Positions 5,701 to 63,720 of a stretch of DNA of 64,000 bases are shown piece after piece; position 1 is the stretch's first letter, and each line of letters begins with the position of its first letter. The stretch lies in assembly GCF_047495875.1 (NCBI RefSeq), contig NC_092497.1:27161889-27225888 (forward strand), read 5' to 3'. Under the pieces are notes generated by a model. That model was given only the letters and a program-made list of their open reading frames with translations, had not been told where the DNA came from and did not search any database. The stretch comes from Pithys albifrons albifrons. Lineage: Eukaryota; Chordata; Aves; Passeriformes; Thamnophilidae. The position numbers were made by a program, and so were the translations under genes.

Positions 5701-5806
5701 TGCTTGCCATTTTCAGTTGTGTAGATGATCTGTAAATTGACGTTATGGGGAAGCTCAAGGGTGCTTTTTTTAGTGTGGTATATAAAATTAAATACATTCC
5801 ATACAA
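2761..5806. other. No recognisable gene
   Basis: Three kilobases of AT-rich sequence without an ORF, RNA gene or repeat that I can identify. The first 100-200 bases may still belong to the LTR on the left. All open frames are short and unrelated to known domains. Confidence 0.5.
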
Positions 5807-5955: not shown

Positions 5956-5967
5956 ATGTAATATGTC
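5956..5967. repeat. Target-site duplication, left copy, of the RTE-like LINE
   Basis: ATGTAATATGTC occurs here and again at 9943-9954, exactly bracketing the LINE. The leading ATG of the right copy may belong to the ATG-repeat tail, so the certain duplication is the 9-base TAATATGTC. Confidence 0.85.
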
Positions 5968-6724
5968 TTCTCTGGGGACACCCCCTTGTCGCGGGGGAGA
6001 AGCTTGCGTGCCCTCATGAGGTTGAGAGCTATGCTGGAGGTGGTTTGTGCCACCAGTAGGGTCTCTCATGCCAGACAGGTCTCACCTGAAGGGTCAGACA
6101 AAGTGTGTCCACGGGCAGGATGGGCTCGCTAGCCGTCTGGCAACCATCCTAGGAGAAGGACAACTCCAACCCCAAACCCGGGCAGATGGGTCTCGCTTAG
6201 CCCTGTAAGGCCATCCATCTAAGAGAAGGATACTCTAACCAAACCTATGTCCTGAGGTATTCGCTGTCACCGTCCAAGCTCGCTGGGCCATGGCAGATGA
6301 ACCTTAGGAGTAAAAGGTGGGGCCAGTTCTGCGCACGCTGTGCCTCACCTAAAAAATCCATTGCGCAGGCCTGAAGGGTTCACCCACATTGCAAAGCCCT
6401 GTAGCGACAGGTGAGGGTCGAAAACGGCAGGTGATAGGAAGCAGCTGGAAGCCGCAGACCCAACCCTGCATGCAGGCGGTTCAGGATATGGGTCATTAGA
6501 GACTTGACCCCGGAGATGACAGTCTCTTGCGGCAGCATCCTGAATGACCAAGCAGCCTTTTCTAGGGACAGCACTGCTTGCTCCACATGGAGAGGGGCCT
6601 AGCAAAGGTGACCTAAACAAAGCTCATCTCCACACCCGGTTGGATAACCGCGGCCAACCGGCATCTTCCATGCGGTCAAACAAAAACAAAGAGATTTCAA
6701 AGGCATACACCTGCCTGCAAAGTT
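5968..6724 (+). other. 5' UTR of the RTE-like LINE
   Basis: GC-richer than the surroundings, with no long ORF in the endonuclease frame. The segment 6250-6383, including CCATGGCAGATGAACCTTAG and CTGTGCCTCACCTAAAAAAT, is shared with the SINE on the minus strand at about 58115-58243. The true ORF start is not obvious. Several RTE elements carry an HDV-like self-cleaving ribozyme at the 5' end, but I cannot demonstrate that fold here. Confidence 0.6.
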
Positions 6725-7480
6725 GTGCTCAAACTAACACTCGCATGTTGGAACATCACAACCATGCTTGATACTGGGGATAGTGGACGTCCTGAGCGTC
6801 GTTCTGCTCTAATTGCCCACGAACTGACAGGGCTCAACATTGTCATTGCTGCTTTCAGTGAAATTCGTCTTCATGAGGAAGGCAGCCTTAAAGAACATGG
6901 TGCTGGCTACACACTCTACTGGTCAGGCAAACCCAAAACCGAAAGACACCTTTGAGGAGTTGGCTTCATGATTAAAAACTCCATTGCCTCCAAACTTGAA
7001 AATCTGCTGACAGGTCATTCCCATCGCATTATGTCCTTACGCCTCCCTCTACACAACAAGCAACATGTTGTTCTTTTTAGCGTATATGCCCCAACTCTCC
7101 AAGCTGACCCAGTGGAAAAAGACAAATTCTACACCGACCTGCACTGCCTCACCCAAAATGTTTCTGCAGATGATAAAATAATAATCCTTGGTGACTTCAA
7201 CGCCAGAGTAGGTAAGAATTCTGAAGCCTGGAAAGGAGTCCTGGGCATGCATGGCGTTGGAAACTGCAACAACAACGGACACTTCCTGCTAGAGTTTTGC
7301 GCAGAACGGCAGCTCACCATCACCAACACTATCTTTTAACAGAAAGACAGCCTGAAGACAACCTGAATGCATCCTCGATCCAAGCACTGGCACCTCATTG
7401 ACTATATCGTAGTACAACAGAGAAATATCAGTGATGTCCGTCATACTCGAGTGATGCCGAGTGCAGAATGTCAAACAGAC
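6725..7480 (+). pseudogene. LINE endonuclease (APE-type), inactivated
   Basis: The frame encodes an exonuclease-endonuclease-phosphatase domain that would nick target DNA to prime reverse transcription. Recognisable blocks in order are ACWNITTM, the SEIRLHEEGS block with the catalytic Glu, LFSVYAPT, ILGDFNARVG with the Asp/Asn pair, and HLIDYIVV near the end. In-frame stops occur at 6953-6955 (TGA, probably a CGA Arg codon lost by CpG decay) and 7337-7339 (TAA). After about 7480 the coding continuation moves to another frame, indicating an indel. The order endonuclease then RT matches RTE and related LINEs. Confidence 0.85.
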
Positions 7481-7895
7481 AAACCGCCTTGTGTGCTGCA
7501 AACTTAACCTCCACTTCAAGCCCAAACCTAAGAGAGGCAGCATTCTAAGGAGGAGGCTTCAAGTCAGCAATCTTCAAGCAGCCACAGTGAGAGACAGCTT
7601 CCAGGGAAACCTTCAAACTAGACTTAAAGATAATCCCATAGATCCCTCTCCTGAAGCACTTTGGCAACATATTAAAAGTTGCATCCTGCAGTCCTCTGAA
7701 GAGTCCCTAGGGTTCTCCTCCAAGAAAAACAAAGAATGGTTTGATGAGAACAATCAAGAGATCCAGGAATTGCTGAAGAAGAAGAGAACTGCTCACCAAG
7801 CACACCTTGCTCAGCCATCTTGCCATATAAAAAAAGCCGCCTTTCGTCTTGCATGCAGCAAGCTCCAACAGAAACGTCGAGACATCCAGAACTAG
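7461..7895 (+). pseudogene. LINE ORF linker between endonuclease and RT
   Basis: The coding continuation of the same LINE in a shifted frame. The 144-codon stretch is rich in Lys, Gln and Arg (for example LLKKKRTAHQAHLAQ), the usual basic linker between endonuclease and RT in RTE-type proteins. It ends in a TAG at 7893-7895, after which coding similarity resumes in the frame used by the RT. It overlaps the endonuclease segment by about 20 bases because the exact frameshift point is uncertain. Confidence 0.75.
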
Positions 7896-9895
7896 CAGAA
7901 AAGACACAACTATGCACAGATTTGGGTGACCAAAGAGGATTCTATGAGGCCCTGAAAGCAGTGTACAGACCCACACACCAGGTTCAAAGCCCCCTACTCA
8001 GTGCAGATGGTCAACTGCTTCTAACAGATAAAACCTCCATCCTGAACTGATGGTCTGAGCACTTTCAGACTCTCTTCAGTTCCAACCGTGTAGTCCAAGG
8101 CACAACAATTCAGCACATTACACAGCAACCGGTGAAACATGAATTGGATGCAGCCCCTACTATGGGAGAGATACTCAAGGCCATACAACAGGTGAAAACT
8201 GGCAAGGCAGCTGGGGTCGATGGAATTCCACCTGAAATCTGGAAGCATGGAGGTCAAGCACTCCATGCCAAATTCCACAAGCTTCTTGTGCATTGCTGGG
8301 AACAAGGAGAACTACCACCAGATCTCCGTGATGCAGTCATTATCACCCTGTACAAGAAGAAAGGAGAAAAATCAGACTGCTCAAATTACCAAGGTGTTAC
8401 TTTGCTCTCCATTGCTGGTAAAATCCTTGCAAGAATACTTCTGAACAGATTAGTACCCACTACTGCAGAAGATCTTCTACCTGAAAGCCAGTGTGGTTTC
8501 AGAGCCAATAGGAGCACCACAGACATGGTGTTTGTTCTCAGACAACTGCAAGAGAAGTGTAGGGAACAGAAGAAAGGTCTCTATGTAACCTTCGTTAACC
8601 TCACCAAAGCTTTCGACACTGTGAGCAGAAAAGGCCTGTGGCAGATCTTGGAATGTTTAGGATGTTCCCCCAAGTTCCTCAAAATGATCATCCTGCTACA
8701 TGAGGATCAGCGTGGACAAGTCAGATATGGCGATGCACTCTCTGAGCCCTTTCCAATAACCACTGGTGTGAAACAAGGTTGCGTTCTTGCACCAACTCTA
8801 TTCACAATCTTCTTCAGCATGATGTTCCAAAGAGCCACAGCAGACCTCGATGAAGAAAACGGCATCTACATCCGATATCCTACCGATGGAAGCCTCTTCA
8901 ACCTAAGGCGACTGAAGGCCCACACCAAGACCCTGAATCACCTTGTCCGTGAGCTGCTTTTTGCTGATGATGACACCCTCGTTGCTTACACAGAAGCAGC
9001 TCTGCAGCGCTTAACATCCTGCTTTGCAGAGGCTGCTGAGCTTTTTGGGCTGGAAGTCAGCCTGAAGAAGACGGAAATTCTCTACCAACCTGCACCTCAA
9101 GAAGTCTTCCATCATCCTCACATCACCATAGGCAATTCAGAGCTTAAGTCAGTTCAGCAGTTCACCTATCTGGGAAGTATCATTTCCTCAGACGGTAAGA
9201 TTGACAAAGAGATAGACAACAGGCTAGCAAAGGCATACAAAGCCTTCGGAAAACTCCATAAAAGAGTCTGGTCCAATAAACACCTGAAGAAAAGTACAAA
9301 GATTAGTTTCTACAGAGCCATTGTACTGTCTACTCTTTTATATGGGTCTGAATCATGGGTCGTCTACCACCACCACCTGCAGCTTCTCAAATGCTTCCAT
9401 CAGCGCTACCTCCATTCAATCCTAAACATCCACTGGTCTGATTACGTGACCAATGTGTCTGTTCTTGAACAGGCAGGGGTCAGCAGTATCGAGGCCATGC
9501 TGACGAGAACTCAGCTGCGCTGGGCAGGGCACGTCTCCATGATGGAGAATCACCACCTTCCAAAGATTGTGCTCTATGGTGAACTCGCCACCAGCTGCCG
9601 CAAGGGAGGAGCCCCGAAGAAGAGATACAAGGACTCCCTGAAACAACATCTCAGCCTTGACCAGATTGACTGCCACCAATGGTCCACTCTGGTCTCCAGT
9701 CAGGATTCATGGAGACACACCATTCACGACACTGCTGCTTCCTTTGAGAATGCACAGAGAGTCAGTCTTGAGGAGAAAAGACAATGCAGAAAGAACCGTT
9801 CCTTGCCAATGTCACCTAGGGAGACGTTCTGCTGTGCCTTTTGTGACCGGATCTGCCTTTTTAGCCACCAGCATGCTTGCAGCAAGCGTGGGTAG
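7896..9895 (+). pseudogene. LINE reverse transcriptase with C-terminal zinc finger
   Basis: The RT domain of the RTE-like LINE. From 8132 it is open for 587 codons, and the same frame reaches back to 7896 with one stop at 8048-8050 (TGA, again likely from CGA). RT blocks in order are GKAAGVDGIPPEIWK, QCGFRANRSTTDMVF, TKAFDTVSRKGLW, TTGVKQGCVLAPTLF and the catalytic LFADDD at 8957-8974 (FADD at residues 277-280 of the open part), then FTYLGSIISSDGKID. The C-terminus has a CCHH finger-like CAFCDRICLFSHQHAC. The finger spacing looks short, so it may carry a small deletion. All catalytic aspartates remain, so the insertion is old but not ancient. Confidence 0.9.
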
Positions 9896-9909
9896 TGCCC
9901 TTCTCAAAT

Positions 9910-9923
9910 CTTCGTTCGCGAAG
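9910..9923 (+). other. 3' terminal hairpin of the RTE-like LINE
   Basis: CTTCG-TTCG-CGAAG forms a 5-bp stem with a UUCG loop, immediately before the CATGATGATG tail. The SINE at 58050-58364 has the same hairpin with one pair changed on both sides. This is a plausible recognition site for the LINE RT. Confidence 0.6.
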
Positions 9924-9942
9924 CCTAGCCATGATGATGATG

Positions 9943-9954
9943 ATGTAATATGTC
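9943..9954. repeat. Target-site duplication, right copy, of the RTE-like LINE
   Basis: ATGTAATATGTC, matching 5956-5967. Confidence 0.85.
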
Positions 9955-19156: not shown

Positions 19157-19359
19157 GTATTTAACAGTGGAAATAATGAGAAAGCTGGGAATCATTGATG
19201 GCAGAGTCCTACTGAAGGCACCAAAAATATGTACTATGAAAAGGCAAGGGAACTTTTGAGTTATATCCCTTGCCTTTTCATAGTACATATTTTTGATGCC
19301 TTCAGTAGGACTCTGCCATCAATGATCCCAGCTTCCTCATTATTTCTACTGTTAAATAC
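19157..19359. repeat. Near-perfect 95-bp inverted repeat (hairpin) with 14-bp loop
   Basis: The left arm 19157-19251 and right arm 19266-19359 are reverse complements with, by eye, three transitions and one single-base indel over 95 positions. The loop is 19252-19265. No transposase, terminal TA or target duplication is evident. See findings. Confidence 0.95.
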
Positions 19360-27404: not shown

Positions 27405-28084
27405 AATGGATGGCTGGGCGTAGAGAATGGTGGTGAATGGAGTTATATCTAGATGGCCATTGGTCCAAAGTACTGTTCTCCAGGATTCAGTACTGGGACC
27501 AGGCCTGTTTAATATCGTTATCAGTGATCTGGATAGTTAACCATCTGGATAGTCAATGATCAATCAGTTTGCAGGCAACATCAAGTTGTATAGGAGTGTT
27601 GATCTGCTTGAAGGCAGAAAAGCTCCACAGAGGAATCTGGACAGGCTGGATTGATCTGCCAAGGCCAGTGGTAAGAGGTTCAACAAGACCAGGTGACAGG
27701 TCCTGCTCTTGGGTAACAACAACACCAGGCAGCATTACAGGTTTGGGAGAGAGTGTCTGGAAAGCTGTCCAGGGGAAAAGAATCTGGGGGTGCTAGTGGA
27801 CAGAAGCTGAACATGAGCCAGAAGTATGGCCAAGAAGACCAAAGGAATCCTGGCTTGTATCAGTGTGGCCAGCAGGATCAAGGAAGTGATTGTCTCCCTT
27901 TATTCAGCACTGGTGAAGTCACACCTCAAATCCTGTGTTCAGTTTTGGGCCTCTCACAAGTACATTGAGGTGCTGGAGCATTTGCAGAGAAAGGCATCAG
28001 AGCTGGGACAGCATCTGGAGCAGCATTTATATGATAGTCCAGGAGGGATGGATGTGCTTCAAGCAGGAAGTCTTGAATGCGCAG
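27405..28084 (+). mobile_element. CR1 LINE fragment A (RT C-terminal half)
   Basis: Broken coding similarity to CR1 ORF2: a block equivalent to SVLGPGLFNIVISDL near 27490, the [12 protein letters not shown]...YSALVKSHL block at 27829-27930, and [20 protein letters not shown] at about 27935-27990. Multiple frameshifts and stops. It stops before the 3' UTR and abuts a second CR1 fragment that starts earlier in ORF2, so the two are separate insertions or a rearranged one. The junction is somewhere between 28000 and 28085. Confidence 0.8.
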
Positions 28085-29284
28085 AAACAGGCTGCCCCAA
28101 GGTGCCAAAAGACAAGCTGGTGAGGAAGATGACCAGCCTGGCTGAACAGGGAGATTTGGAAGGAAATTAGGGTAAAAAAGAGATGTTACCAATTAAGGAA
28201 AAAAGGACTGGCTACTCGTGAAGAGTTTAAGAATGTAGCTAGGCCATGTAGAAAGAAAATTAGAGACACAAAGGCACAATTTGAACTCAATCTTGACACT
28301 TCTGTTACAGATAAAAAAAAGTCTTTCTACAGATACATCAATAGCAACAGTAGGGGCAAGGAAAACCTCCATTCTTTATTGGATATGGGAGGGAACAATT
28401 ATCAAGGATGAAGAAAAGGCTGAGGTATTTAACACCTTCTTTACCTCAGTTTTCAACAGTAAGACAGGTTGTCCTGAGGATAACTGGCTTCTGGAGCTTT
28501 TAGATGAAGATAAGAAGCTGAAAAGCCCTGCTGTAATCTAGGAAGAAACAGCAACCTGCTGAGTCACTTGGATTCTCACAAGTCTATGGGATCAGATGGG
28601 ATCCATCCTAGGGTGATGAGGGAGCTGGCAGAAGAGCTCATCAAGCCTCTCTCCATCATTTACCAACAATCCTGGTTCTCTCAGGAGGTCCCAGATGATT
28701 GGAAGTTGGCAAATGTCAAGCTGGTCCACAAAAAGGGTCGGAAGGAAGACCCAGAAAACTTCAGGCCAGTCAGCCTGACCTTGGTGCTTGGCAAGGTTAT
28801 AGAGCAGATCATTCTGAGTGCAATCACACAGCATTTATAGGACAGACAAAAGATCAGACCCAGACAGCATGGATTTAGGAAGGGCAGGTCCTGTCTGACC
28901 AACCTGATCTCATTTTACGGTCTGGTGACCCACCTGGTGGATGAGGGGAAGGCTGTGGATGTGTCTATCTAGACTTCAGCAAGGCCTTTGACACTGACTC
29001 CCATAATATACTCCTGGAAAAGCTTGTAGCCCATGGCTTGGAAAGGTGTACCCTCTGCTGGGTTAGGAGCTGGCTGGAGGGTCGGGCCCAGAGAGTGCTG
29101 GTGAACAAAGCTGCATCCAGCCGGTGGCCAGTCACTAGTGGTGTCCCCCAGGGGTCAGTGTTGGGTCCAGTCCTGTTTAACATCTTTATTGATGATTTAG
29201 ATGAGGGGATTGAGTCCATCATCAGCAAATTTGCTGATGACACCAAATTGGGAGGGAGTGTCGACCTGCCAGAAGGCAGGAGGG
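28085..29284 (+). mobile_element. CR1 LINE fragment B, left part (ORF2 RT)
   Basis: Starts in the ORF2 segment [20 protein letters not shown] and continues through REKI-like basic linker, SMGSDGIHPRVMRELAEELI (about 28580), QEVPDDWKLANVKLVHKKGR (28683), FRPVSLT, HGFRKGRSCLTNLISF and [20 protein letters not shown] up to [11 protein letters not shown], the catalytic FADD. Several stops and frameshifts show it is a pseudogene. It is split from its right part by an LTR at 29285-29638. Confidence 0.9.
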
Positions 29285-29638
29285 TATAGGAATCTGAAAT
29301 CCCGCTTACAGCAAAAAGAGCTAGAAATCTTAAACAGCAAGCCCAGTTCAACAAGGCCGAGAGAAATTCCATCACCAAGAACAGAGGAGGCTTGGTGATG
29401 CTCAACTTGAAGATAAGCTGTCTCCTGCCTTAACATAAGAAAAGAGTCTAGAATGAATGTTATCAGATTGTGTTCTAATCCCCTGCTGTCTTCCCTCCAT
29501 AAATTCCTGAAATTACCATAACCCTTCCTACCTATTAGCATGTGTCTCCCTGAAACCTTTAAAAGTGGTCAAGTGTTCAATAAAGTATTCCAGTTTTCTT
29601 CCCCATAGCTGGGATCGTGTAGTTTTTTGACTGTTTCA
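29285..29638 (+). repeat. Solo LTR (ERVK-like) nested in CR1 fragment B
   Basis: The CR1 coding text breaks at GGCAGGAGGG and resumes at AGGAGGGCTCTGC, giving a 6-base duplication GGAGGG (29279-29284 and 29639-29644; up to 8 bases match if CA is counted). The inserted 354 bases end in CA, begin TA (likely decayed TG), and contain TTTAAAAG at about 29561 and AATAAAG at 29579-29585, the usual promoter and poly(A) order. Six-base duplications fit ERVK-type integrases. No internal genes, hence a solo LTR. Confidence 0.75.
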
Positions 29639-29644
29639 GGAGGG

Positions 29645-30465
29645 CTCTGCAGAAGGACCTGGACATACTGGAGAGTTAGGCTGATTCCAATGGAATGAGA
29701 TTTAACAAGGCCAAGTACTGGGTCCTGCACTGTGGCCAAAATAACCCCATGTAGTGTTACAGACTGGGGACAGAGTGGCTTGAGGCAGGCCAGATGGAAA
29801 AGGACCTGGGGGTACTAATTGACAGGAAGCTCAACATGAGCCAACAGTGTGCCCAGGTGGCCAAGAAGGCCAATGGGATCCTGTCCTGTATCAAGACTAG
29901 TGTGACCAGCAGGACGGGGGAAGTGATCCTTCCCCTGTACTCAGCGCTGGTGAGGCCACACCTTGAATATTTTGTTCAGTTCTGGGCCCCTCAGTTCAGA
30001 AAGATATTGAGGTGCTGGAGCAAGTCCAGAGAAGAGCAACGAGGCTGGTGAAGGGATCTGAACACAAGTCCTACGAAGAGAGGCTGAGGGAGCTGGGGTT
30101 GTTTAACCTAGAAAAGAGGAGGCTCAGGGGAGACCTTGTCGCTCTCTACAACTACCCGAAAAGGGACTGTACCTGAGTGGGGGTTGGTCTCTTCTCCCAG
30201 AAAACTATCGTTATGACAAGAGAGCATGATCTTACGCTCTGCCGGGGGAGGTTTAAGTTGGATGTTAGGAGGAAATTCTTTACAGAGAGGGCAATCAGGC
30301 ATTGTAATGGGCTGATCAGAGAGGTGGTTGATTCTCCATTCCTGGAGGTTTTTAAGATGAGACTGGATGTGGCACTTAGTGCCATGGTCTAGTAACTGCA
30401 GTAGTAGTGGATCGAGGGTTGGACTTCATCTCAGAGGTCTTTTCTAAGCTGGCTTATTCTATGAC
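29645..30465 (+). mobile_element. CR1 LINE fragment B, right part (ORF2 end and 3' UTR)
   Basis: Continuation of the interrupted CR1: [31 protein letters not shown] (29794), [32 protein letters not shown], then frame-broken C-terminal blocks (VGLFSQKT, RFKLDVRRKFFTERA near 30180-30300) and a 3' UTR with GGTTGGACTTCATCTCAGAG ending in TTCTATGACGCTATGA, the CR1 octamer-like tail. The element therefore reaches its natural 3' end, as usual for 5'-truncated CR1 insertions. Confidence 0.9.
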
Positions 30466-36877: not shown

Positions 36878-37505
36878 TGTCCTAGTTCAGCAGGAGGGAC
36901 CAGCTAACCCTGTGTGGGGGTGATCAAAGCTGTGTATTCTACCCCCTCTATTCATTCCCCAAGGTCAATGGGCCATTAGCAGCAGCTGCCCAGGGAGCCA
37001 TTATCACCTTCACACCCAGCCTGAGGGGGGCGGAGCTGCTAAGGGGCCATCAACAGTTCAACACCCCCTGGCTCCCAGAGTTAATCACCCATTGTGTGAG
37101 TCCCCGCCCAGGGGGAGGGACTGAGTGCTCCCTGAGGGTACATAAGTGGTGGGTAAGAAGACCTCAGGAACTTCTCGTCGGATCCAGAGCAGCAGCAGGA
37201 CCTTGACAGGAGGAGATCACCGCTCTCGCCCAGACCACAGCCCTCGCCTGCACCAACAGGTTTTTCTTTTCCTTTTGCTCTGGACTTGAGGGAACCACAG
37301 GGGTCTCAGCACAAGGGCAAACAAACCCCCTTGGGTTTGTGCCCCAGGACACTGGGTTATACTGCTGGGGTATTGTGAGTTGAAAGCAATTTCCCTTGTG
37401 TGTCAGTGTTGTTATTGTAATATTATTATTAAATTTTAGGTCTGACTTATAATCTCTCTCGTGGTGAGTTCATTTCCCCTGCTGGTTCACCTTCAAACCA
37501 TCACT
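36878..37505 (+). repeat. Solo LTR, same family as the 61-kb provirus
   Basis: Begins TGTCCTAGTTCAGCAGGAGG and runs in parallel with the proviral LTR at 60981-61609 with roughly a dozen differences by eye over about 628 bases. It is flanked by the 5-base duplication GTTAC (36873-36877 and 37506-37510). The CA terminus reads CT here. A GC box (CCCCGCCCAGGGGGAGGG), TACATAAG and ATTAAA lie in promoter-to-poly(A) order. The high similarity implies recent activity. Confidence 0.9.
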
Positions 37506-40500: not shown

Positions 40501-43148
40501 CTTTGTAAGTCACCTAGCGCTAATGTCCAGGGCTGCCCTGAAGAACTTTATTGACACAGAAAAATACTGGAAGCTCAACTGGATTTGAAGGATGTGACTA
40601 AGACACACAATGTTTGAAGATAATTCCAGATGTGTCTGGCTATGAACTTGTCCTGAAATGTATGAGGTCTAATTACCAGCTGAGTTTATCATGGGTCACG
40701 AAGCCAAAAATCATGAACTGAAATAGTGTATAGCCTATTCCCTCCCTTCACAATAAAGCCCTTTCTCTGTTACTAGCTGATTGTACACATAAGTGAAGAT
40801 CAAGACACTGTCCTGTAGATATTTTGAAACTAATAAGAAATGGTGACTACATCAAGCAAAATACTTGCAAGGAGGTTTCATTATGGTGGGATCAAAGGAT
40901 AGATAAAAGGGGGTTTTATTTATAAACCACTTCTATTCTTTAACCCACTGGGGGCTGTCATAGTATAAAAGACAACCCTTTCCTTGACCTTTCTGTGGAG
41001 CTTTATGAAAAAAAAAAGCATGAGACGAGATTATAAAAGCATTATGTGAATTTTAGAAATAGAAAAGTCATTGTACTCAGACCCATAAACCTACAAGCAC
41101 AATTAACATCACATGCAAAATGCAAGGATAACTTGATGATTAGTTTATCTTAAAATTATTAAGAGGTTAACTATGTTGCAATCTGCTCAGAGTGTAAGAT
41201 ATGTAAAAAAATTTGTCTCCTTTGCCTAAGATAATTTCTTCTTCAGTGTCAAGTTTCCAAGTTTTCTCTGACTTTCCAAAAATACTGGTATGTGTACTTT
41301 TATTGGTAGAATATGACCACATCTCACTCATAAGACATGCTTTTTTAATTTTGCTCTAAAACAATTGCTTTGCATTTTCATTAATGCCTACAGTAGCATC
41401 ACCGGTACAATTAAAATATAATTCAAAAAATATTTGCAGTCTGTTAACATTTCTTCAACTATGCACAGTTGCTAAATCCTACACTGAACTAAAACCACCT
41501 TTTTTATTCTAGTGTACATCTGATATGTAGATTTAAATTAATCTCTTTCTAGGCACCAGTAACTACATTCACAGAGACTGACACTTTAATTGTCTGTGTC
41601 CAAAATTTTGATCCTTCAGCCTCCTGTTCTGGTGCTGCCTAAATTGAAAGGAAGCCAAACTTTTTTTGCTCTTCTATTCCCCCACATAAAACCTCCAGGG
41701 TGTTTACACATTTACCACACACTCGGTACGTGTGCAATCAGACAATCCTGCCCAGTAGCCCAAAATGTGTCCTGCTCTTGCCCTGCCTGTCAAGCATCCT
41801 TCCTGCCTTAGGCAGTGTTTTGAAACTTGCCTACTAAACTGTCTCTTGTGCAAAATAACCAGGCCACACTGCTCATGCAGAACAGAAAATATAGCTGAGA
41901 ATAGGAGGGAGAAACCAGGGTGCATATTCCTACCTTGCACAGGTAGAGTAGGATTTCAACCAAACCCCACAGAGCAAGAGCATTAAACCACTGGGAAAGC
42001 CAGCAGCAGGAATGGAACTCCAGCCAAGGCTTTTTTTCTGTGTATGTTTACTGAAAACCAACAGTCTGGACAAGGTTCCAGTCACAGCTCCTGCCTCTGA
42101 ATCCAAGTGGAAGAGGTTGGATACCAATTGCTTTTGAGGCCAATGTTTGGATGGCCTCTGTTCCACACCTTGCTATTCCCTGCTTATCTCAGAAGCTCCC
42201 TGCTTCCTTATACATTTCCTTATGTGGCCTAATCAAAGGCTGAGAAGTCTACAAATGATAAGAGGCTTGGGAATAACACCAATACACAGAAGCAATGCTC
42301 CTTTAGTATGTATAGTACTATATGTTGCTTGGCCAGTTGTAATAATTGCTCTCTATTTTGTTAACTTGTTGACCTCTACCTGAAAACCCCAGTTATGATT
42401 ATGATTTAGGCTATATCCTGTTTAAAGGCGGAAGCCTGTTCAAGGGCAGTCCAATTTCTGCTCCTGACTGATTGAAGATATTCAGACATGAAGGAACAAC
42501 TGATAATATCAGGTGTTTATGGTTCAGTCTTGTAAACAGCTTTTATGTAAACAATACTTTGAGTTCAATGGGTTGTCCTGTCTGTAACATCAGACAGACA
42601 ATTCTGATTTTGCATGCCTTTTGTAACTTGGAGAATTGACATGAGCTGCTCCATTTTAGCATCAATGGGCATCTTTGTTGTTTTGGAGATGTGAAATGGA
42701 AATGCTGAACTGTCTCATGGTAGACAACTTTCTTGCTGAGAGACTGCTGCCAAAACACATTCATACAAACACACTATCCTGAGATTTCTAACTCAATTTG
42801 CCAGTCTGTCCATTCTGACAAGGTCTGAAGGAATTTGTACTTTGCCTTCTTCTTCAAGCTAGACAAAACTTCTGAGACTCACATAGCGTGTCTCCAGGCT
42901 ATAAGTCAGGGTCAACACCCTACTCAGCGCATCTCACTGAACTGAACTGAAATTGCATTTAGGGTATGTCTTCAGATGTGTTTGTTAGCAAAGACAAACA
43001 TAACTGACCGGTTTTCTGCTGACATATCCATTTATTGTAGACCTGAATCAGTGGAAAATATGCATGGCTGACATGAGAGACCCGTGGTATTTCTGTTTTT
43101 AACTCTGTCCAGAAGAGGTGTATGAAGAAACAGGGTTAAAAAGGAGAA
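37511..43148. other. No recognisable gene over about 5.6 kb
   Basis: Short ORFs only. At about 40130-40500 the minus strand has AATAAACTCC downstream of a GC-richer segment, which could be an old LTR, but ends are not visible. An LTR-free, unique-looking region otherwise. Confidence 0.45.
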
Positions 43149-44492
43149 GGGCGGGCGGGCGGGAGGGAGGGAGGAAGGGAGGGAGGGAGGAAGTGCGGAA
43201 GTGCGGACGTGTGGAAGTGCGGAAGGAAGTGCGGAAGTGCGGACGTGTGGAAGTGCGGAAGGAAGTGCGGAAGGAAGTGCGGAAGGAAGTGCGGAAGGAA
43301 GTGCAGAAGTGCGGAAGGAAGTGCGGAAGGAAGTGCGGAAGTGCGGAAGGAAGTGCGGAAGTGCGGAAGGAAGTGCGGAAGTGCAGAAGGAAGGAAGTGC
43401 GGAAGGAAGGAAGGAAGTGCGGAAGGAAGGAAGGAAGTGCGGAAGGAAGGAAGTGCGGAAGGAAGTGCGGAAGGAAGGAAGTGCGGAAGGAAGGAAGTGC
43501 GGAAGGAAGGAAGTGCGGAAGGAAGGAAGTGCGGAAGGAAGTGCGGAAGGAAGTGCGGAAGGAAGGAAGTGCGGAAGTGCGGAAGGAAGTGCGGAAGGAA
43601 GTGCGGAAGGAAGTGCGGAAGGAAGGAAGGAAGTGCGGAAGGAAGTGCGGAAGGAAGTGCGGAAGGAAGTGCGGAAGGAAGGAAGGAAGGAAGGAAGGAA
43701 GGAAGGAAGGAAGGAAGGAAGGAAGGAAGGAAGGAAGGAAGGAAGGAAGGAAGGAAGGAAGGAAGTGCGGAAGGAAGGAAGTGCGGAAGGAAGTGCGGAA
43801 GGAAGTGCGGAAGGAAGTGCGGAAGGAAGTGCGGAAGGAAGTGCGGAAGGAAGTGCGGAAGGAAGTGCGGAAGGAAGGAAGGAAGTGCGGAAGGAAGGAA
43901 GTGCGGAAGGAAGGAAGTGCGGAAGGAAGTGCGGAAGGAAGTGCGGAAGTGCGGAAGTGCGGAAGTGCGGAAGTGCGGAAGTGCGGAAGTGCGGAAGGAA
44001 GGAAGGAAGGAAGGAAGGAAGGAAGGAAGGAAGGAAGGAAGGAAGGAAGGAAGGAAGGAAGGAAGGAAGGAAGGAAGGAAGGAAGGAAGGAAGGAAGGAA
44101 GTGCGGAAGGAAGGAAGTGCGGAAGGAAGGAAGGAAGGAAGTGCGGAAGGAAGGAAGTGCGGAAGGAAGGAAGGAAGTGCGGAAGGAAGGAAGGAAGTGC
44201 GGAAGGAAGGAAGTGCGGAAGGAAGGAAGTGCGGAAGGAAGTGCGGAAGGAAGGAAGTGCGGAAGGAAGGAAGTGCGGAAGGAAGGAAGGAAGGAAGGAA
44301 GTGCGGAAGGAAGGAAGGGAGGAAGGGAGGGAGGGAGGGAGGGAGGGTAGGAGGGAGGGAGGGAAGGAGGGAGGAAGGGAAGGAGGGAGGGAGGGAGGGA
44401 GGGAGGGAGGGAGGGAGGGAGGGAGGGAGGGAGGGAGGGAGGGAGGGAGGGAGGGAGGGAGGGAGGGAGGGAGGGAGGGAGGGAGGGAGGGA
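43149..44492 (+). repeat. 1.34-kb purine-rich GGAA / GGAAGTGC / GGGA array
   Basis: A hierarchical microsatellite. Starts with GGGC/GGGA (43149-43190), then mixed GGAAGTGC and GGAAGGAAGTGC units, pure GGAA runs at about 43677-43764 and 43996-44100, further mixed units, and a final GGGA tract from about 44316. Because the units contain no stop codons, frames of over 400 codons are open on both strands; these are artefacts. See findings for the ETS-site and G-quadruplex observations. Confidence 0.98.
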
Positions 44493-45596
44493 TGGATTTT
44501 GGAGCTACCTTCTTTCAGAGACATGTGTTTCTTCTTAAGCTTGAACTCTCCTTAATACCAGCTCTTCAGATCTGAAGACGATTTGTGCTGATATCAACAG
44601 GAAATTCTGTTGTTATGTCAATGAATGTATCATGACCAAAATTTAAACTGACATGTGCTCAGCTATAAGTGATTTTGCTTTAGGGTGCCTGTAATCAGAA
44701 TTAAAGCCTTCTGCTTCAAGATAAAGTTCAGACAAAATTTCCACTGCAATTGATACCATTTACCTTAACAAGAACTATGTAGGAGTGGGCCGGCATAACA
44801 CACAGGTCTAGGATACAGTTTTGTGTAACTGGAACAGAGGATTATAGTCAATGCCAAATAACACTAAGAATTATGTCAGTGTTCTGTATTATTTTCATAT
44901 TAAATTTCATAAGATTCCAAGTAAACTAGTTCTAGCATTCCCCTAGCACTCTGAGTCTCACTCAGTCACCAGAGATGAAAATGCCATGCATCAGCATCCA
45001 TAAGGATAGGCATTGCACTTGAAAAGTCAGGTTGCTCATGGGACTGTACCAGAATTAGTTCTTGGAAAATTATAAAATATATTTTTTTCCATGTTGGCAA
45101 CTTTACTCTATTTTGAATATTTCTTTCATGTTTTCTCACAATAAACGGTTTCTCTCATTTTATACTCGAAAAGTAGCTCAGTTACGAGTTATGAGTTTAT
45201 TGGTTGCAGTAGGTAGGACAAAATCATCTGCTCACTTCCAATTCCAATGAGAATGAACAATCCTAAGAAAGGGCTGGTGACTCAAAATCTGTGATTTTGT
45301 TCTTTCTCAGCTATGTCCACTGGCTTGATATAAATCAACACCACTTCCCACAAGCTTTACCTGATGCTAATGTGTAACAGGCACTGAACAGGTCTCACAG
45401 TGCTTTGCAAGAGAAGGTGGAGTGAATTTCCACCAAGTCAGTGAGGAGTAAAGACTGGCCTCCTTAGTCCAGGGTCCTTCCATACTGTGGCTGTTTGAAG
45501 CCTACTCTGCTACCGCTCTAAATCAGATGATACTCTTGGTAGTAGTCTTCTTACTGACTTTGATCAGAAACAGTTCTTTCTCAGTGGAATCCAGGG
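44493..45596. other. No recognisable gene
   Basis: Short ORFs only. Confidence 0.5.
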
Positions 45597-53083: not shown

Positions 53084-53804
53084 TGTGCTGGTTTAAAGGT
53101 AAACTGGCAGGAGAAATGAACGCAACACAAAAGAGATTATAAGTCAGAGTTACAATTTAATAAAAATATTACAATAAATACAATCACACAAAGAGAAATT
53201 GGTTTTAATGCACAAAAACCCAGTAGTACAACCCAGCACCTTGGGGCACAAGCACAAAGGGGTTTGTTAGCCCCTGTGCTGAACCCTATGTTGTTCCCCC
53301 AAGTCCAAAGTAAAAGTCTAAAGTGGAAAACCTGTTGGTGCAGAGGACGGTCGCAGTGTGGTGAAGAATGGCGGTCTCCTCCTGTCAAGGTTCTGGTCCT
53401 CCTCTGGATCAGACGAGTAATTTCCTGAGGTCTTCAAACCCAAGATATGTACCCTCAGGTATAAGTGGGAGCACCCAGTACCTCCTCCAGAGTGGGGAGT
53501 CACACAATGGGTGATCTAAGTCTGTGAGTCATGGGGTATTTTGGAATCATTGAAGGCCTATGAGCAGACACACCCCCTCAGGCTGGGTGTGAAGGTCCTA
53601 ACGACTCCCTGGAGGGGAGTTATCACAGCTCTTTTCTCACAAGTGTCTTTCACAGCCAGCTCATAACGTGAGGGGTCAGGTGTGCTCTGGGCAGCTGCTG
53701 CAAATGGTCCATTGTTCTTGGGAAATGGATAGAGGGCATGGAATGCATAGCTTTTGGTCATTCCCACACAGTGATAAACTGGTCCCACCTGCTGAACTAG
53801 GACT
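53084..53804 (-). repeat. Solo LTR, diverged member of the 61-kb provirus family
   Basis: On the minus strand the first bases match CCTAGTTCAGCAGG and the last match ACCTTTAAACCAGCACA of the proviral LTR, with recognisable but diverged sequence between and about 90 extra bases. A 5-base duplication CTATT flanks it (53079-53083 and 53805-53809). It is clearly older than the copies at 36878 and 60981, showing the family was active over a long time. Confidence 0.85.
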
Positions 53805-53809
53805 CTATT

Positions 53810-55835
53810 AGATGCATCAGTTAAGGAAAAGCATGAGGTAAGGTCAAATGGCTTGTACAGCTTGAATCTGACCATAAAGCAGGTCCGAGGTAATCTTATG
53901 CATGGGTGCAGGTGTCCACTCAGACATAAAATAATTTAACCCTTCAAAATGCATACATGGCTGTATACAAAGGCTGTATAAAACAAAAAAACCCACAACA
54001 AACAAAGAAACAAAACAAAACAACAACAACGAAAATCAAAACAAAAAAAACCCCATGCTAAATGAGAAATTCTATTGGGAAATTCCTGTGAACTTAGAGT
54101 TTTATTTTCTCACTTCCTGATAAACAAGGGGAATTAACTGCAGACAACTGCTTGTCTTCACTGTCTTATCGAAGGAAGCGTTTGCCTGGTTATCCCCTCC
54201 CACTAGCTCTCAGCAGTTCTTCCCAGGGACTTCCCCTCCCAGTAAGCCACTTTTCCATGGTCTCCTGCTGGTGCCGGTTCAGTGCAGATGATGGATGTCT
54301 GGGCAAGTGCTATCAGCTGTCCCCGTAAGCTTTCCTGTGTTGCTCTGACTCTTCCAGGCCTCCAGTGTCCCACACCATCTTGGAAATGACAATGCAGCTC
54401 TTACCTCACTAGAGGGGAGAAGGTGACCTGCTCACAGGTGTTTGAACACACATTCAGTTAGGAGGTCTCTATTACTGTTCCGTCATGAGAGTCACACCAT
54501 CAGAGGTCCTCCAGACCCTGGCTTCTGCCTTTCCCATTAAAGCTATGTATTAACTTTGATGTTTTTGCCAAGAAAATGAAATTACTACCCTTGCAGTTTC
54601 TAATCAAGCACACCATAGATTATGTAATGTGAGTTGAGGCTAAAAAGTAGTATTTTCTTTTCATCCCTGACACTCTGTAGTAGTTCAAGGTAATGCATGT
54701 CACTTTCAGGGACAGATTTCCCTATTCCCTCCAGTCTGTTTACAAACATTTGCTGCAGATCAGTAAAAGAGCAAAGACTCTTGTCACCTTTTTTTAAGTA
54801 AGGCTTTAGTGGAAGACACGAACAGTTATTATCAGATAGTGCTCTGGAGAAAAGCTGCTTATGAAGTCACCATTTGCAGTATTTGGTTTTACATTATAGC
54901 TGGGAATCTACTAAGAAACAGCTGTGGTATTTTTTCTCTTGAAATGCAAAAAGGAAATTCCTTGCCTTAACGTCTAGTTGGTACCACTGCAGTAAACTTC
55001 TGTCAGATTTTGTAGTACACTTGTTGTTTTTTAACTCTGAAATGCTGATTTGTTTGTTATTCAAAGGGGTTACCCCAGGGTGAGCCAACAAAGTTTAGTT
55101 TTAGATCACTTTGGTCCTTAAGCCAGTAAAAATGTTGCAGACCTTTAAAGCTGCAATGGGAAACAGATTACCCAAAGACGTGTTTTACTCCCAGGTGCTA
55201 AAGAGGTTTGGGCAGAGGCAACTGATTGCACTATTTGGATACTTCAGTTTTACAGTTTTCATGCTAACTCTTATAAAACATGTGCTAAAGTCAATCACTG
55301 ATATACTAGGAAAATTCCTACTATTTGCAAGTAACAAAGTTACAATATACGCCAGAGTCCAAATAGTCAAGATGTGAAATGGAAGAAGTGTGAAACAGAA
55401 TTAAAGTCTTGAGAGTGAGACTTAAGACATCCAGAGATTTAAAGGAATTAAGGAATAAATTATGTGATTGAACTTCAAGCAATAACTTTTGCAATGGGTA
55501 AATTATCATAATGTTCAGTGATGAGCAACTTAGCTCTGCTGAAGTCTAAAAGCTTTTCAGAATTTACTCAAATGACAGAAATAGCTTATGACAAGTGATT
55601 TGAAAAAGTCTCACCAAGACTTCACTGAAATCAGCAATTGGCCTGTAGACCTGAATGGCAGTGCACATTCTATTTGTTACATGATATAAAAAGATCAGCT
55701 CTGTGTTCCTCTTTATTACACCCATGCAAAGAGTTGTTCCTTACCTACCACTATTGCCATATTGGCCTGGGGAATACCCACCTGTTATAGTACCTGAACT
55801 CTTGAGGGACAGAGGTAAAGAGTTTTCCTAAGTGA
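53810..55835. other. No recognisable gene; A/C-rich tract at about 53978-54055
   Basis: Apart from the A/C-rich low-complexity tract, nothing could be assigned. Confidence 0.5.
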
Positions 55836-55906
55836 GTTTTCTAAGTGAGTATGGACAAAAATTTCTAGCATATGTAGTGCAGCAAGTAATTGTTCAGGAT
55901 CACTTT
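55836..55906 (+). repeat. 71-bp duplicated segment, copy 1
   Basis: Identical to 58739-58809 except for one base (T here, A there). Not part of any repeat I recognise. A short tandem TTTTC(C)TAAGTGAG duplication lies at its left edge. Confidence 0.9.
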
Positions 55907-57879: not shown

Positions 57880-58049
57880 CCTATGGGCAAGTTATAATCA
57901 TAATATCCTCTATGAACTATTTTTCTGTGAAGAATTTAGGTAAGCTTTGAAACAGGGTGCTAGAATCAATTGTTCACATCTGTTCCCACACTGATCTGTG
58001 TTCTGACTGTGTGCTGCGGTAGGGAATAGGAAGACCTGCACCACACACA

Positions 58050-58364
58050 CCATCATCACCATCATGGCTCGGCTTTGCAAACAAAGATTTGGGAAGGGCT
58101 CTTCCCACATGGATGTGCCCTTCCAGCCTGCACTGTGGATTTTTTAGGTGAGGCACAGCGTGTGCAGAACTTGCCCCACCCTTTAACTCCTAAGGTTCAT
58201 CTGCCATGGCCAAGAGAGCTTGGACAGTGACAGTGAAGTTGTCAGGACTAGAACCTACAACCCCTGGTATTGCCAGGAGGTCTCCCATCCCGGTACTAAC
58301 TGAGGCTGACCCTGCTTGTCTTCCAAGATCTCATGTGATCAGGCATCAGGGTGGCATTTAACTA
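58050..58364 (-). repeat. SINE with 5S rRNA head and RTE-like LINE body and tail
   Basis: Three parts on the minus strand. Head (58253-58364): 5S rRNA-like over nearly its whole length, including GAAGACAAGCAGGGTCAGCC and the intact C-box-like GGGATGGGAGACC of the 5S internal promoter. Body (about 58115-58243): matches the LINE 5' UTR at 6250-6383, for example CCATGGCAGATGAACCTTAG. Tail (58050-58103): matches the LINE 3' end at about 9893-9945, including the hairpin and CATGATG-type repeats. Imperfect 11-base flanking duplications, CACCACACACA (58039-58049) and CACCATACACA (58365-58375), support retroposition. Pol III transcription from the head and LINE-driven mobilisation are inferred. Confidence 0.85.
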
Positions 58365-58375
58365 CACCATACACA

Positions 58376-58738
58376 AGCAACATAACTAAGGCACTGGAAG
58401 GAGCTGAGGCATCAGTGTGCCATATCTCAGATTTCTCTGACACAAACACCTGTGAATGTGCACAGTGAGACCGGTGCTGTACAGCAGCTTTGGTCTTAGT
58501 GTGCCTGTCCTGCTTTCCATAATATGTGACAGGCTATCCAGGTAGTAGGTTAAGTGTCCAAGATTTTCATCTCTACAGTGGCTCATAATTCAACAAAGCA
58601 TCCAAAATCTTGGAGAAAGAGAGCGACATCTGGAAAAGCCAGATACATGGTAGACTTATCGAGACTTGGCTGCACAGACAGCTGTATGGGCTGAAGTACT
58701 TTACTGAGAGCAGATATCTGTGGAGATGCATCCTAAGA
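58376..58738. other. No recognisable gene
   Basis: Unassigned sequence between the SINE and the 71-bp duplication. Confidence 0.5.
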
Positions 58739-58809
58739 GTTTTCTAAGTGAGTAAGGACAAAAATTTCTAGCATATGTAGTGCAGCAAGTAATTGTTCAG
58801 GATCACTTT
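58739..58809 (+). repeat. 71-bp duplicated segment, copy 2
   Basis: 70 of 71 bases match 55836-55906, same orientation, 2.9 kb away. Confidence 0.9.
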
Positions 58810-60980: not shown

Positions 60981-61609
60981 TGTCCTAGTTCAGCAGGAGG
61001 GACCAGCTAACCCTGTGTGGTGGTGATCAAACCTGTGTATTCCACCCCCTCTATTCATTCCCCAAGGTCAATGGGCCATTAGCAGCAGCTGCCCAGGGAG
61101 CCATTATCACCTTCACACCCAGCCTGAGGGGGGGCGGAGCTGCTAATGGGCCATCAACAGTTCAACACCCCCTGGCTCCCAGAGTTAATCACCCATTGTG
61201 TGAGTCCCCGCCCAGGGGGAGGGACTGAGTGCTCCCTGAGGGTACATAAGTGGTGGGTAAGAAGACCTCGGGAACTTCTCGTCGGATCCAGAGCAGCAGC
61301 AGGACCTTGACAGGAGGAGATCACCGCTCTTGCCCAGACCACAGCCCTCGCCTGCACCAACAGGTTTTTCTTTTCCTTTTGCTCTGGACTTGGGGGAACC
61401 ACAGGGGTCTCAGCACAAGGGCAAACAAACCCCCTTGGGTTTGTGCCCCAGGACACTGGGTTATACTGCTGGGGTATTGTGAGTTGAAAGCAATTTCCCT
61501 TGTGTGTCAGTGTTGTTATTGTAATATTATTATTAAATTTTAGGTCTGACTTATAATCTCTCTCGTGGTGAGTTCATTTCCCCTGCTGGTTCACCTTTAA
61601 ACCAGCACA
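60981..61609 (+). repeat. Proviral 5' LTR, 629 bp
   Basis: TGTCCTAG...CCAGCACA. Contains a GC box (about 61206-61223), a TATA-like TACATAAG at 61243-61250 and ATTAAA at 61532-61537 within the R/U5 region. The 3' partner is not in the window, so age cannot be estimated from LTR divergence; similarity to the solo LTR at 36878-37505 suggests a recent family. Confidence 0.95.
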
Positions 61610-61614
61610 TCTTT

Positions 61615-61632
61615 TGGCGCCCAACGTGGGGC
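61615..61632 (+). promoter_or_regulatory. Retroviral primer-binding site, tRNA-Lys
   Basis: TGGCGCCCAACGTGGGGC, complementary to the 3' end of tRNA-Lys (CUU type). Five bases separate it from the LTR. Confidence 0.9.
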
Positions 61633-61698
61633 CACGAGAGAGAAGTCAGAATTACAATTTCATTTTGTGTATTTGGATACAGAAACTCCCTGACTACC

Positions 61699-63720
61699 AT
61701 GTTGCTTGATGTATTCATGTGGATGGTGTATCTGGGCCTGTTCATATTTCGACACATGGGGAACCATGTGCCTATTTTGATGCTCTCTTTAATACCAGGG
61801 AGAAGGATCAAAATTGCTTTATTAATATACTATGTTTATGTTGTCATAACATCAGAAGCAATGAATTTCATTGTGAATGTATATTCAGTCTGGTGTGCCT
61901 GTCCTGGTTTGGGTTGTTACCTCTGGGGTCTCATTAAAAATAGCACCCAGACTGTGGGGAAAACAGGCGGAGATGGTTACTTATACCTTTTCACCTCTGC
62001 TACAACAATCATTGAAAATATTGAGCTTCCTTTTGATGTTAGGGACAGCATAATCCTACTGTTAGTGCTGTTAGTGTTGCTTTGTCTCCTCTGTACTGTA
62101 TACACCATGTTTAGGGTCAGAACTGGGCTTTCTAAGGAGACTTGCTGGAGGCCTGCCCTGGGAGCGGATGATGTTGAGTGGCACGGGAAGTGGGAAGATA
62201 TGGGCCAGTATTTGGAGACCTTCTCTCCTCAAATGATCTGGAAATTCACCCCAGAACAACTGCAGGACCCTGCCAAAATGCTAAGCTATGTGAAAGGAAG
62301 ATGCTCTGGTAGTCCCAGAGAGGTGCAGCTCACAGCAACCTGCTGGGCCCTGGCCACTGCCTACCGCACACTGCTTGGTGTGGTACAGCATCATCAGGAG
62401 GAGGAGAAAAGGAGCAAATCCACAGGCACCATGTCCACCCAGACCATGACTGAGCCAGAGAGGAAGAGAGATACATCAACCAGCACCATGTCCACCCAAA
62501 CCATGGCTGAGTCAGAGAGAAGAGACACATCAACCAGCACCATGCCCACACAAACCACAGCTGAGCCAGAGAGAAAGGGAAACAAATCAACCAGCACCAT
62601 GTCCACACAAACCATGGAGGAGCCAGAAGGACAACAGAAACCGATAGCAGTTGCCCCTGTCCAGAAAAGAAAATCAAAGACCAAATCAGTTCGTATAGCG
62701 CATGACGAGGAAGAGTCAGGACCTTCATCTCAAGCAGAAGAAATGGAGCCAGAAATAATCACCTGGTCCCTATCCCTGGGAGAGCTGCGTGAGCTCCGGA
62801 GAGAGTTCACACGACAGGCAAATGAGTCCATCTTGACCTGGCTACTTCGAATCTGGGATGCTGCAGCCAATGATACAATTCTAGATGGGAGTGAGGCGAG
62901 GCAGCTGGGATCCCTTTCTCGAGATGTTGTCATTGATCAGGGCATTGGAAAGAGACAGGAAACTCTCAGCCTCTGGTGGCGACTGTTGTCAAGCGTGAGG
63001 GAGAGATATCTTTGTAAGGAGGACCTCCACGTACAGCAAGGACAGTGGAACACAATGGAACAAGGTATCCGGTGCTTAAGGGAATTAGCCGTACTGGAGA
63101 TAATCTTTTCAGAGGATGAGAGATTCCCTAAAAGTCCAGATGGTGTCCAGTGCACATCCCAGATGTGGTTAAAATTTGCACGACTTGGGCCAGAAATGTA
63201 TTCTCGCTACCTTGCAACATTGCAGTGGAGAGAGGGAGAAGACAAGGTGGGTGCACTGGTCAGCAAACTCAGGATTTATGAAGACACTGTCACTGCTCCA
63301 TTACGAGCCCACGTCTCAGCTGTGGAAACAAAACTGGCTGAACTGGAAGAGAAGATTAAGGAAGGACTCTTCCATATCTCTCCAGAACAAACAAGAGTCT
63401 CTGCCATCAGAAGCAGGCGTCTTCCAGCTAAGGAGAAAGGGTACACTCCACGCGGCAATCTGTGGTTTTACCTCCATGAGCATGGAGAAGATATGAGGAA
63501 GTGGGATGGGAAACCCACCTCTTCCTTAGCAGCTCGGGTACGTGAATTGCAAAGAGGCACAACTAACACAGGGAATTCTTCAAGGTTGAAGGCTGCTCCG
63601 GTCTCTCGTGGGGAAGGCTCCAGACAGTATAGGAATGATGATGTTATGCCCGATCCTCTTGAAGGAACCTCCCGGTCATATTCACAGGGAGAGCGCAGTA
63701 AATACCATGACCAGAACTAG
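61699..63720 (+). CDS. gag: ERV Gag polyprotein, intact, 673 aa
   Basis: Starts 66 bases after the primer-binding site. Residues 1 to about 140 contain several hydrophobic segments (about 1-18, 27-62 and 117-139), unusual for a Gag N-terminus. A matrix-like segment follows (about 150-235). Residues about 236-320 hold four near-identical repeats, each with STQT or PTQT. From about 355 (SLSLGELRELRREFTRQ) to 520 is the capsid-like region, recognisable from avian ERVL-type Gags. A helical heptad segment (VSAVETKLAELEEKIKEG) lies near residue 545. No CCHC zinc knuckle is present at the C-terminus. The frame ends in TAG, and protease continues in the same frame. The actual start could be a later Met, which would drop the membrane segments. 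No disruption is visible. Confidence 0.9.
   Translation: MLLDVFMWMVYLGLFIFRHMGNHVPILMLSLIPGRRIKIALLIYYVYVVITSEAMNFIVNVYSVWCACPGLGCYLWGLIKNSTQTVGKTGGDGYLYLFTSATTIIENIELPFDVRDSIILLLVLLVLLCLLCTVYTMFRVRTGLSKETCWRPALGADDVEWHGKWEDMGQYLETFSPQMIWKFTPEQLQDPAKMLSYVKGRCSGSPREVQLTATCWALATAYRTLLGVVQHHQEEEKRSKSTGTMSTQTMTEPERKRDTSTSTMSTQTMAESERRDTSTSTMPTQTTAEPERKGNKSTSTMSTQTMEEPEGQQKPIAVAPVQKRKSKTKSVRIAHDEEESGPSSQAEEMEPEIITWSLSLGELRELRREFTRQANESILTWLLRIWDAAANDTILDGSEARQLGSLSRDVVIDQGIGKRQETLSLWWRLLSSVRERYLCKEDLHVQQGQWNTMEQGIRCLRELAVLEIIFSEDERFPKSPDGVQCTSQMWLKFARLGPEMYSRYLATLQWREGEDKVGALVSKLRIYEDTVTAPLRAHVSAVETKLAELEEKIKEGLFHISPEQTRVSAIRSRRLPAKEKGYTPRGNLWFYLHEHGEDMRKWDGKPTSSLAARVRELQRGTTNTGNSSRLKAAPVSRGEGSRQYRNDDVMPDPLEGTSRSYSQGERSKYHDQN

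Follow-up and report, generated by a model that had tools for sequence, protein, structure and literature searches.

When the window, the whole 64,000-nucleotide stretch of Pithys albifrons albifrons DNA analyzed here, was searched by BLASTN with an E value cutoff of 1e-3, it contained one SINE and one LINE. The SINE lies on the minus strand and has the following parts.

58364-58050, minus strand: whole SINE copy of 315 bases, a 5S head followed by a LINE 5' UTR body and a LINE 3' tail
58252..58364, minus strand: 5S rRNA-derived SINE head with a predicted type 1 Pol III promoter (Rfam RF00001 at 58252-58363)
58110..58248, minus strand: SINE body, a piece of the LINE 5' UTR (BLASTN and switch-point alignment)
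58050..58109, minus strand: SINE tail with ATG-like repeats, corresponding to the final ~58 nt of the LINE (BLASTN)
58365..58375, minus strand: 5' target site duplication, TGTGTATGGTG, 10 of 11 bases like the 3' copy
58039..58049, minus strand: 3' target site duplication, TGTGTGTGGTG, 10 of 11 bases like the 5' copy

The original prediction had claimed a 5S rRNA head on this strand, and Rfam agrees. Model RF00001 (5S_rRNA) matches window positions 58363-58252 over model positions 1-120 with 41.1 bits (gathering threshold of 38, E value of 4.4e-05). It is the sole gathering-level Rfam hit in the window, and 84 of 103 aligned bases equal those of human 5S rRNA. The body and tail had been traced to LINE positions 6250-6383 and about 9893-9945, and BLASTN recovered both, the body at 6249-6400 (83.8% identity over 154 nt, E value of 4.6e-41) and the tail at 9888-9945 (86.2% over 58 nt, E value of 1.8e-14). 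The internal switch point shows a one-base tie: it falls after SINE position 58110 or 58109, where the LINE sequence passes from 6386 to 9887 or from 6387 to 9888. The limits given for the element, 58050 and 58364, were also right, as the 11-base direct repeats abut both ends directly, although for this single copy the match between them is modest (a score this high is reached by 14 of 400 random flank pairs). RNA folding gave nothing firm for the whole SINE (z score of -0.89), for LINE positions 6249-6400 (z score of -2.06, 8 of 200 shuffles as stable), or as a two-sequence consensus fold (both bases changed in 2 of 39 pairs). An ~80-bp direct repeat (55826-55906 and 58731-58809, 96% identical, 2.9 kb apart) has the SINE between its two copies.

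The LINE lies on the plus strand.

5967..9945, plus strand: RTE-type LINE copy (AviRTE-type), frames interrupted by stops, 5' end placed to within one base
6249..6387, plus strand: stretch of the LINE 5' UTR present in the SINE body (BLASTN, switch point, and family consensus)
9887..9945, plus strand: LINE 3' end present in the SINE tail (BLASTN, switch point, and family consensus)
5956..5967, plus strand: 5' target site duplication of the LINE, 12 of 12 bases; the last base may be the LINE's own
9943..9954, plus strand: 3' target site duplication of the LINE, 12 of 12 bases; the first bases overlap the ATG tail

Its frame at 8051-9892 has an RVT_1 domain (E value of 1.3e-30), and an Exo_endo_phos_2 match at 6956-7336 scores 26.6 bits, just under the cutoff of 27.4. 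The copy is ~3980 nt long, with the frame ending at 9895 and ~50 nt following to the element end. AviRTE is described, in the accessible passages of Suh et al. 2016 (PMC4844689), as having an ~800-bp 5' UTR, a 3.2-kb frame, and a 40-bp 3' UTR. The length, short 3' UTR, and ATG repeats of the window LINE fit that account, the comparison being by description only.

Several other features were seen in the window. Directly upstream of the LINE insertion, at ~5800-5967, lies an element that looks TguSINE1-like by eye, and 13 bases of a published TguSINE1 primer align at 5821 with 1 mismatch (mean by chance, 0.18); TguSINE1 has been placed in Eupasseres, according to the portion of PMC5729268 drawn on here. 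On these grounds the host was judged to be probably a suboscine passerine. Two ~628-bp LTR-like repeats (36878-37504 and 60981-61608) are 98.4% identical and 24 kb apart, an inverted copy of ~78 to 83% identity lies at 53084-53806, and a 727-amino-acid open frame (61537-63720) with no Pfam hit adjoins the repeat at 60981-61608; the repeats and the frame together look like an endogenous retrovirus. Positions 27622-30048 hold broken frames, which resemble a CR1-type reverse transcriptase by eye, and an internal 71% repeat. There is also a near-perfect palindrome of ~205 bp at 19156-19360 (91% self-inverse, with 64-nt arms that are 97% complementary and 14 nt apart) and, at ~43100-44550, ~1.4 kb of interrupted short tandem repeats that are open in several frames on both strands.

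A single SINE copy in the window would suit a chance chimaera, or a stack of unrelated insertions. We searched the genome (1,144,288,329 bases or 1.14 Gb, 53 contigs) and found thousands of matches, with target duplications around the whole unit, so that we regard this alternative as extremely improbable. A pattern spanning the 5S C box and the body has 2328 exact genome matches (control, 0), and the element is therefore no lone chimaera. The full SINE query gave 4134 first-look candidates; the best 40 were scored, and 41 rows were returned. All 41 run contiguously from query position 5 or below to position 285 or above, that is, from the head through the body and into the tail, and among these best 40 of 4134 the identity is 85 to 90%, the window copy itself apart. 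Target duplications with a score of at least 8 flank 29 of the 41 copies, against 47 of 2000 mismatched flank pairs, and at a score of at least 10 the counts are 13 of 41 and 0 of 2000. The chance chimaera was rejected on these contiguous rows and duplications.

As checks, a family consensus, a count of target duplications, and alignments of the head to 5S rRNA and of the body to the LINE consensus had been proposed together with the prediction. The 40 fetched copies and the window copy have a mean identity of 92.8% with a 318-nt consensus (89.9 to 94.9%; window copy, 91.7%), a divergence that is biased low because the sample consists of the 40 best-scoring rows and the window copy. The consensus head equals human 5S rRNA at 92 of 104 positions and retains 14 of 15 bases of the A box, 17 of 18 of the C box, and 4 of 6 of the intermediate element. 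The SINE consensus is identical to the LINE consensus at 128 of 140 positions of the body and 54 of 59 of the tail. The element is short, repeated, and bounded by target site duplications, as SINEs in general are, and its 5S rRNA-derived head is that of the SINE3/5S type. The prediction of a 5S-headed mobile SINE family drawn from both ends of an RTE-type LINE was right. The family has a dense patch on contig C1 at ~0.3 to 4.94 Mb. Among the roughly 100 pattern matches listed, about four-fifths fall in the first 4.94 Mb of this contig and 17 in the next ~5.8 Mb, against a genome-wide density of ~2 per Mb.

The partner LINE was traced through the genome with its first 281 nt as the query. There were 1211 candidates, and the 40 that were scored all match from position 1, the 5' end of the window LINE, at 96 to 100% identity. 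We took 20 copies with complete 5' ends together with 4 kb downstream (L053-L072). Thirteen are full length, five are internally deleted (940|3722, 681|1304, 321|3912, 1348|1488, and 1124|3836), L068 is rearranged, and L070 matches positions 1-865 only. Target duplications scoring at least 8 were found for 18 of 19 copies, against 59 of 2000 mismatched pairs; this count omits two of the 20 that are without a 3' end and includes the window copy. Four of the five internally deleted LINEs have such duplications; L062 gave none. The longest open frame among the 20 copies is 836 amino acids, and there is no full-length frame in the sample. The 5' UTRs are 97.1% identical pairwise (13 copies, 78 pairs), which suggests that LINE activity was fairly recent. 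Since the SINE and LINE consensus sequences are less alike (128/140 and 54/59), the LINE has been active more recently than the split of the SINE from it, and on the same figures the window LINE copy is not likely to be the parent of the SINE.

The original prediction had also derived the SINE from an internally deleted LINE RNA, and here it was upheld in part. Internal deletions occur in 5 of the 20 sampled copies, and in L062 LINE positions 1-321 are fused to ~3912 onward, a product of the kind represented by the body and tail of the SINE. The breakpoints of the SINE itself were not recovered on a LINE: an exact pattern for a LINE-headed element with them had 0 genome matches, a search that would miss diverged copies because it has 24 fixed bases. 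The L062 junction occurs once in the genome (1 match), giving no propagated family of that deletion. An origin through an internally deleted LINE is thus plausible and partly supported.

A second family shares the body. Behind its tRNA-Gln-like head, the 5S segment recurs with the C box missing and leads into that body, and a pattern joining the tRNA to the body has 1564 exact genome matches (control, 0). As this pattern and that of the 5S-only family differ in stringency, the 2328:1564 ratio means little. For sampling independent of the head, we used an exact pattern for the body/tail junction, which has 726 genome matches (control, 0), and fetched 90 of the 100 matches listed; all 90 lie on contig C1 and carry the exact junction motif, and ten listed places were not fetched. 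The heads were 5S-only with a C box in 26 copies, tRNA headed in 54, and truncated or unclear in 10. Among the matches listed for the pattern joining the tRNA to the body, only 6 lie below 5 Mb on contig C1.

The C box is the TFIIIA-binding part of 5S genes. Its core was found within 2 mismatches in 25 of the 26 5S-only copies versus 0 of the 54 tRNA-headed copies, whereas the 5S A box was found within 3 mismatches in 25 of 26 and 51 of 54. The span across the C-box region is 45 nt in 10 of the 26 5S-only copies and 44 nt in 5 (other lengths, 3; unmatched, 8), compared with 19 nt in 38 of the 54 tRNA-headed copies and 17 nt in 6 (other lengths, 4; unmatched, 6); a single tRNA-headed copy has a span of 36. 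The deletion in the tRNA family is of 26 nt, removes the C box, and lies between TAC repeats in the consensus. Target duplications scoring at least 9 are located at the tRNA start in 29 of the 54 copies, against 22 of 2000 pairs, and the tRNA is therefore part of the mobile unit. The 5S-only copies were also considered as mere truncations of tRNA-headed ones. This was rejected, for they keep the C box that is missing from 54 of 54 tRNA-headed copies.

ARAGORN was run on 21 loci, 18 of them tRNA headed. For the head, it called tRNA-Gln (CTG) at L076 and L095 and tRNA-His at L083, made no head call in the other 15, and placed a tRNA-Gln elsewhere in L096. A B-box expression matched 47 of the 54 tRNA-headed copies versus 1 of the 26 5S-only copies, a count not relied on because the expression also matches a consensus site outside the tRNA. 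Seven of the 54 (L086, L089, L133, L158, L113, L156, and L120) have alternative, truncated, or oddly placed heads and were excluded from the consensus, divergence, and tree analyses. Two of these, L086 and L089, present a third head variant, in which the tRNA-like 3' half is kept and the 5' half differs (GATAGTTAGCTCAGTGATGAC...). The terminal repeats are ATG in the LINE and in many 5S-only copies and ACAT in most tRNA-headed and some 5S-only copies (L009-L048, L073-L162); a pattern search, run without a positive-control result, had 0 genome matches for a LINE with an ACAT tail. At L081, a 5S-only SINE immediately follows the ACAT tail of a SINE that has a tRNA-family body, as though it had landed next to or within an older copy of that family, so the activity periods of the two families may have overlapped.

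The two families could be independent, with a 5S head and a tRNA-plus-5S head captured separately on bipartite LINE tails. The accessible text of Suh et al. 2016 (PMC4844689) reports that AviRTE SINEs with different heads emerged in parallel and in a lineage-specific way, and an approximately unbiased (AU) test, given below, does not reject reciprocal separation. Against this, the LINE start point, the internal junction, and the unusual 5' start of the 5S segment are common to both families, as are, counted by eye on the consensus alignment, about a dozen changes from the LINE. Together with a copy in which both heads are complete, described next, these shared features already disfavor separate origins, and we consider them unlikely.

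Addition of the tRNA before loss of the C box predicts copies with a tRNA and a complete 5S segment. Such a form is absent from the 54 sampled tRNA-headed copies, none of which has the C-box core within 2 mismatches. A genome pattern for it gave 2 matches, at C10:29767035 and C17:12914957. Because the backward control also gave 2, the intermediate rests on the letters of one copy. Both matches open with a tRNA end and then the 5S segment in their first 80 letters. In the C10 copy, of which 226 bases were read, a tRNA-Gln-like head is followed by a complete 5S segment with ATGGGAGACCTCCTGGG, the GGGTGCTGTGACAGTCC junction of the tRNA family, and the start of the body. We take this copy to be the predicted middle stage, and the first 80 letters of the other match indicate that it, too, may have a tRNA and a complete 5S segment. 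A recombinant or gene-converted origin of the C10 copy is possible.

The existence of this stacked copy would also suit the reverse order, in which the form with tRNA and complete 5S came first and the 5S-only copies arose from it by tRNA loss or 5' truncation, and SINE families can lose 5' parts. Several comparisons between the families speak against this order. Measured outside CpG against the consensus of the respective family, the K2P divergence is 0.065 for the 26 5S-only copies versus 0.046 for 47 tRNA-headed copies. At the 18 sites that differ between the families, an outgroup composed of 5S and LINE agrees with the 5S-only state at 12, with the tRNA-headed state at 3, and with neither at 3. 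Exact matches to the 5S-only form outnumber those to the stacked form by 2328 to 2, and 11 of the 26 5S-only copies start at consensus position 1, with duplications in 13 of the 26. We judge the stacked-first order to be quite improbable. The three sites at which the tRNA family holds the outgroup state imply a source other than the majority 5S-only consensus itself, and several tRNA-family states are found in a minority of the 5S-only copies.

A tree of 115 rows (67 5S-only copies, 47 tRNA-headed copies, and 1 outgroup of 5S and LINE) places the tRNA family within a 5S-only grade, nearest to L161, L137, L101, and L048, with bootstrap/SH-aLRT values of 99/83, 100/73, 90/78, and 99/87, respectively. 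The tRNA family is not a clade in the free tree, since the 5S-only copy L161 falls inside it. AU tests did not reject the 5S-only copies as one clade (P = 0.358) or the tRNA family as one clade (P = 0.307), so that for the direction of change the tree counts less than the sites, the divergence, and the intermediate. It appears that a 5S (type 1) promoter gave way to a tRNA (type 2) promoter in this lineage.

The explanation that we consider probable is that an old 5S SINE, mobilized in trans by an AviRTE-type LINE, captured a tRNA and then lost its C box. The window element would be an old copy of this Pol III-type SINE, likewise mobilized in trans by the AviRTE-type LINE, and the unit consists of a nearly complete 5S head, LINE 5' UTR positions 282-419, and the last ~59 nt of the LINE. 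The 5S A and C boxes would permit TFIIIA/TFIIIC-dependent Pol III transcription of a 5S-only unit, and the LINE 3' end with its short repeat would permit reverse transcription by the LINE enzyme. The tRNA would have been captured at the 5' end of the 5S SINE, probably by template switching. An upstream tRNA promoter would turn the unit into a type 2 Pol III gene, in which the C box would be dispensable; once that promoter drove transcription, the C box could have been lost between the two TAC repeats.

We lean towards reading the copies as three stages preserved in one bird genome on one bipartite RTE tail: 5S only, tRNA with complete 5S, and tRNA with 5S lacking the C box. If this is true, the different heads of AviRTE SINEs would in part reflect one lineage capturing promoters in succession instead of several births in parallel, and the sequence of steps would be readable and testable. 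A promoter succession of this kind would matter because SINE head swaps are usually inferred from end products. With old, stacked, and decayed promoter forms coexisting, one can ask whether stacking is advantageous and whether loss of the C box comes next. One can also ask whether AviRTE SINEs across suboscines have one origin, against the published parallel emergence. As the same LINE 5' UTR segment is kept under both heads, a need of the RTE for that RNA segment is testable as well.

The original prediction had tentatively taken the layout to be unrecorded in birds, a novelty that is not supported. Suh et al. 2016, in the passages accessible (PMC4844689), describe AviRTE SINEs with different heads on a common bipartite tail made up of 5' and 3' UTR fragments, among them GymnSINE of antbirds, which has a 5S head and is mobilized by AviRTE. 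Its layout of a 5S head on a bipartite AviRTE UTR tail is that of the window element, compared by layout and not by sequence, and the window element is thus known in kind. Those passages mention neither a tRNA-plus-5S head nor a promoter succession for GymnSINE. The same source describes ManaSINE1 of manakins and tyrant flycatchers, with a tRNA-Glu head on the bipartite AviRTE tail. By description, it resembles our second family in having a tRNA-derived head on the same kind of tail. It differs in that its tRNA is tRNA-Glu and a 5S remnant is unmentioned in that text, whereas in the second family ARAGORN called tRNA-Gln in 2 of 18 loci and tRNA-His in 1 of 18. For GymnSINE and ManaSINE1, we found no literature source besides Suh et al. 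2016. No paper on a bird SINE with tRNA and 5S appeared among the titles and abstract openings listed from the open literature, so that the second family is provisionally new to the literature, its comparison with GymnSINE and ManaSINE1 being by description only.

Head exchange on an existing passerine SINE has a likeness in PittSINE, for which derivation from TguSINE1 by template switching has been proposed (PMC5729268). There, one tRNA head replaced another on a CR1 tail, and the portion of that paper drawn on mentions no stacked intermediate. AmnSINE1 and the DeuSINEs are SINEs of amniotes that contain both a 5S promoter and a region derived from a tRNA but, in the passages available from PMC3234267 and PMC5753468, have the 5S first, then the tRNA region, with a Deu domain. 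Membership in this group was considered and rejected, as the body and tail of the window element are from an RTE LINE and, in the second family, the tRNA precedes the 5S segment. Tree-shrew SINEs likewise fuse a tRNA with a Pol III RNA, but that RNA is 7SL and not 5S, according to the available text of PMC5753468. Among nonautonomous units of the RTE clade, some have a 5S or tRNA head and some have the LINE's own 5' end, although their hosts and LINEs differ from ours. In mammals, LINE-1 occurs in fusions with 5S and other small RNAs, and template switching is among the mechanisms discussed in the accessible part of PMC13174262. In those fusions the 5S is mostly antisense and truncated, whereas here it is sense and nearly complete.
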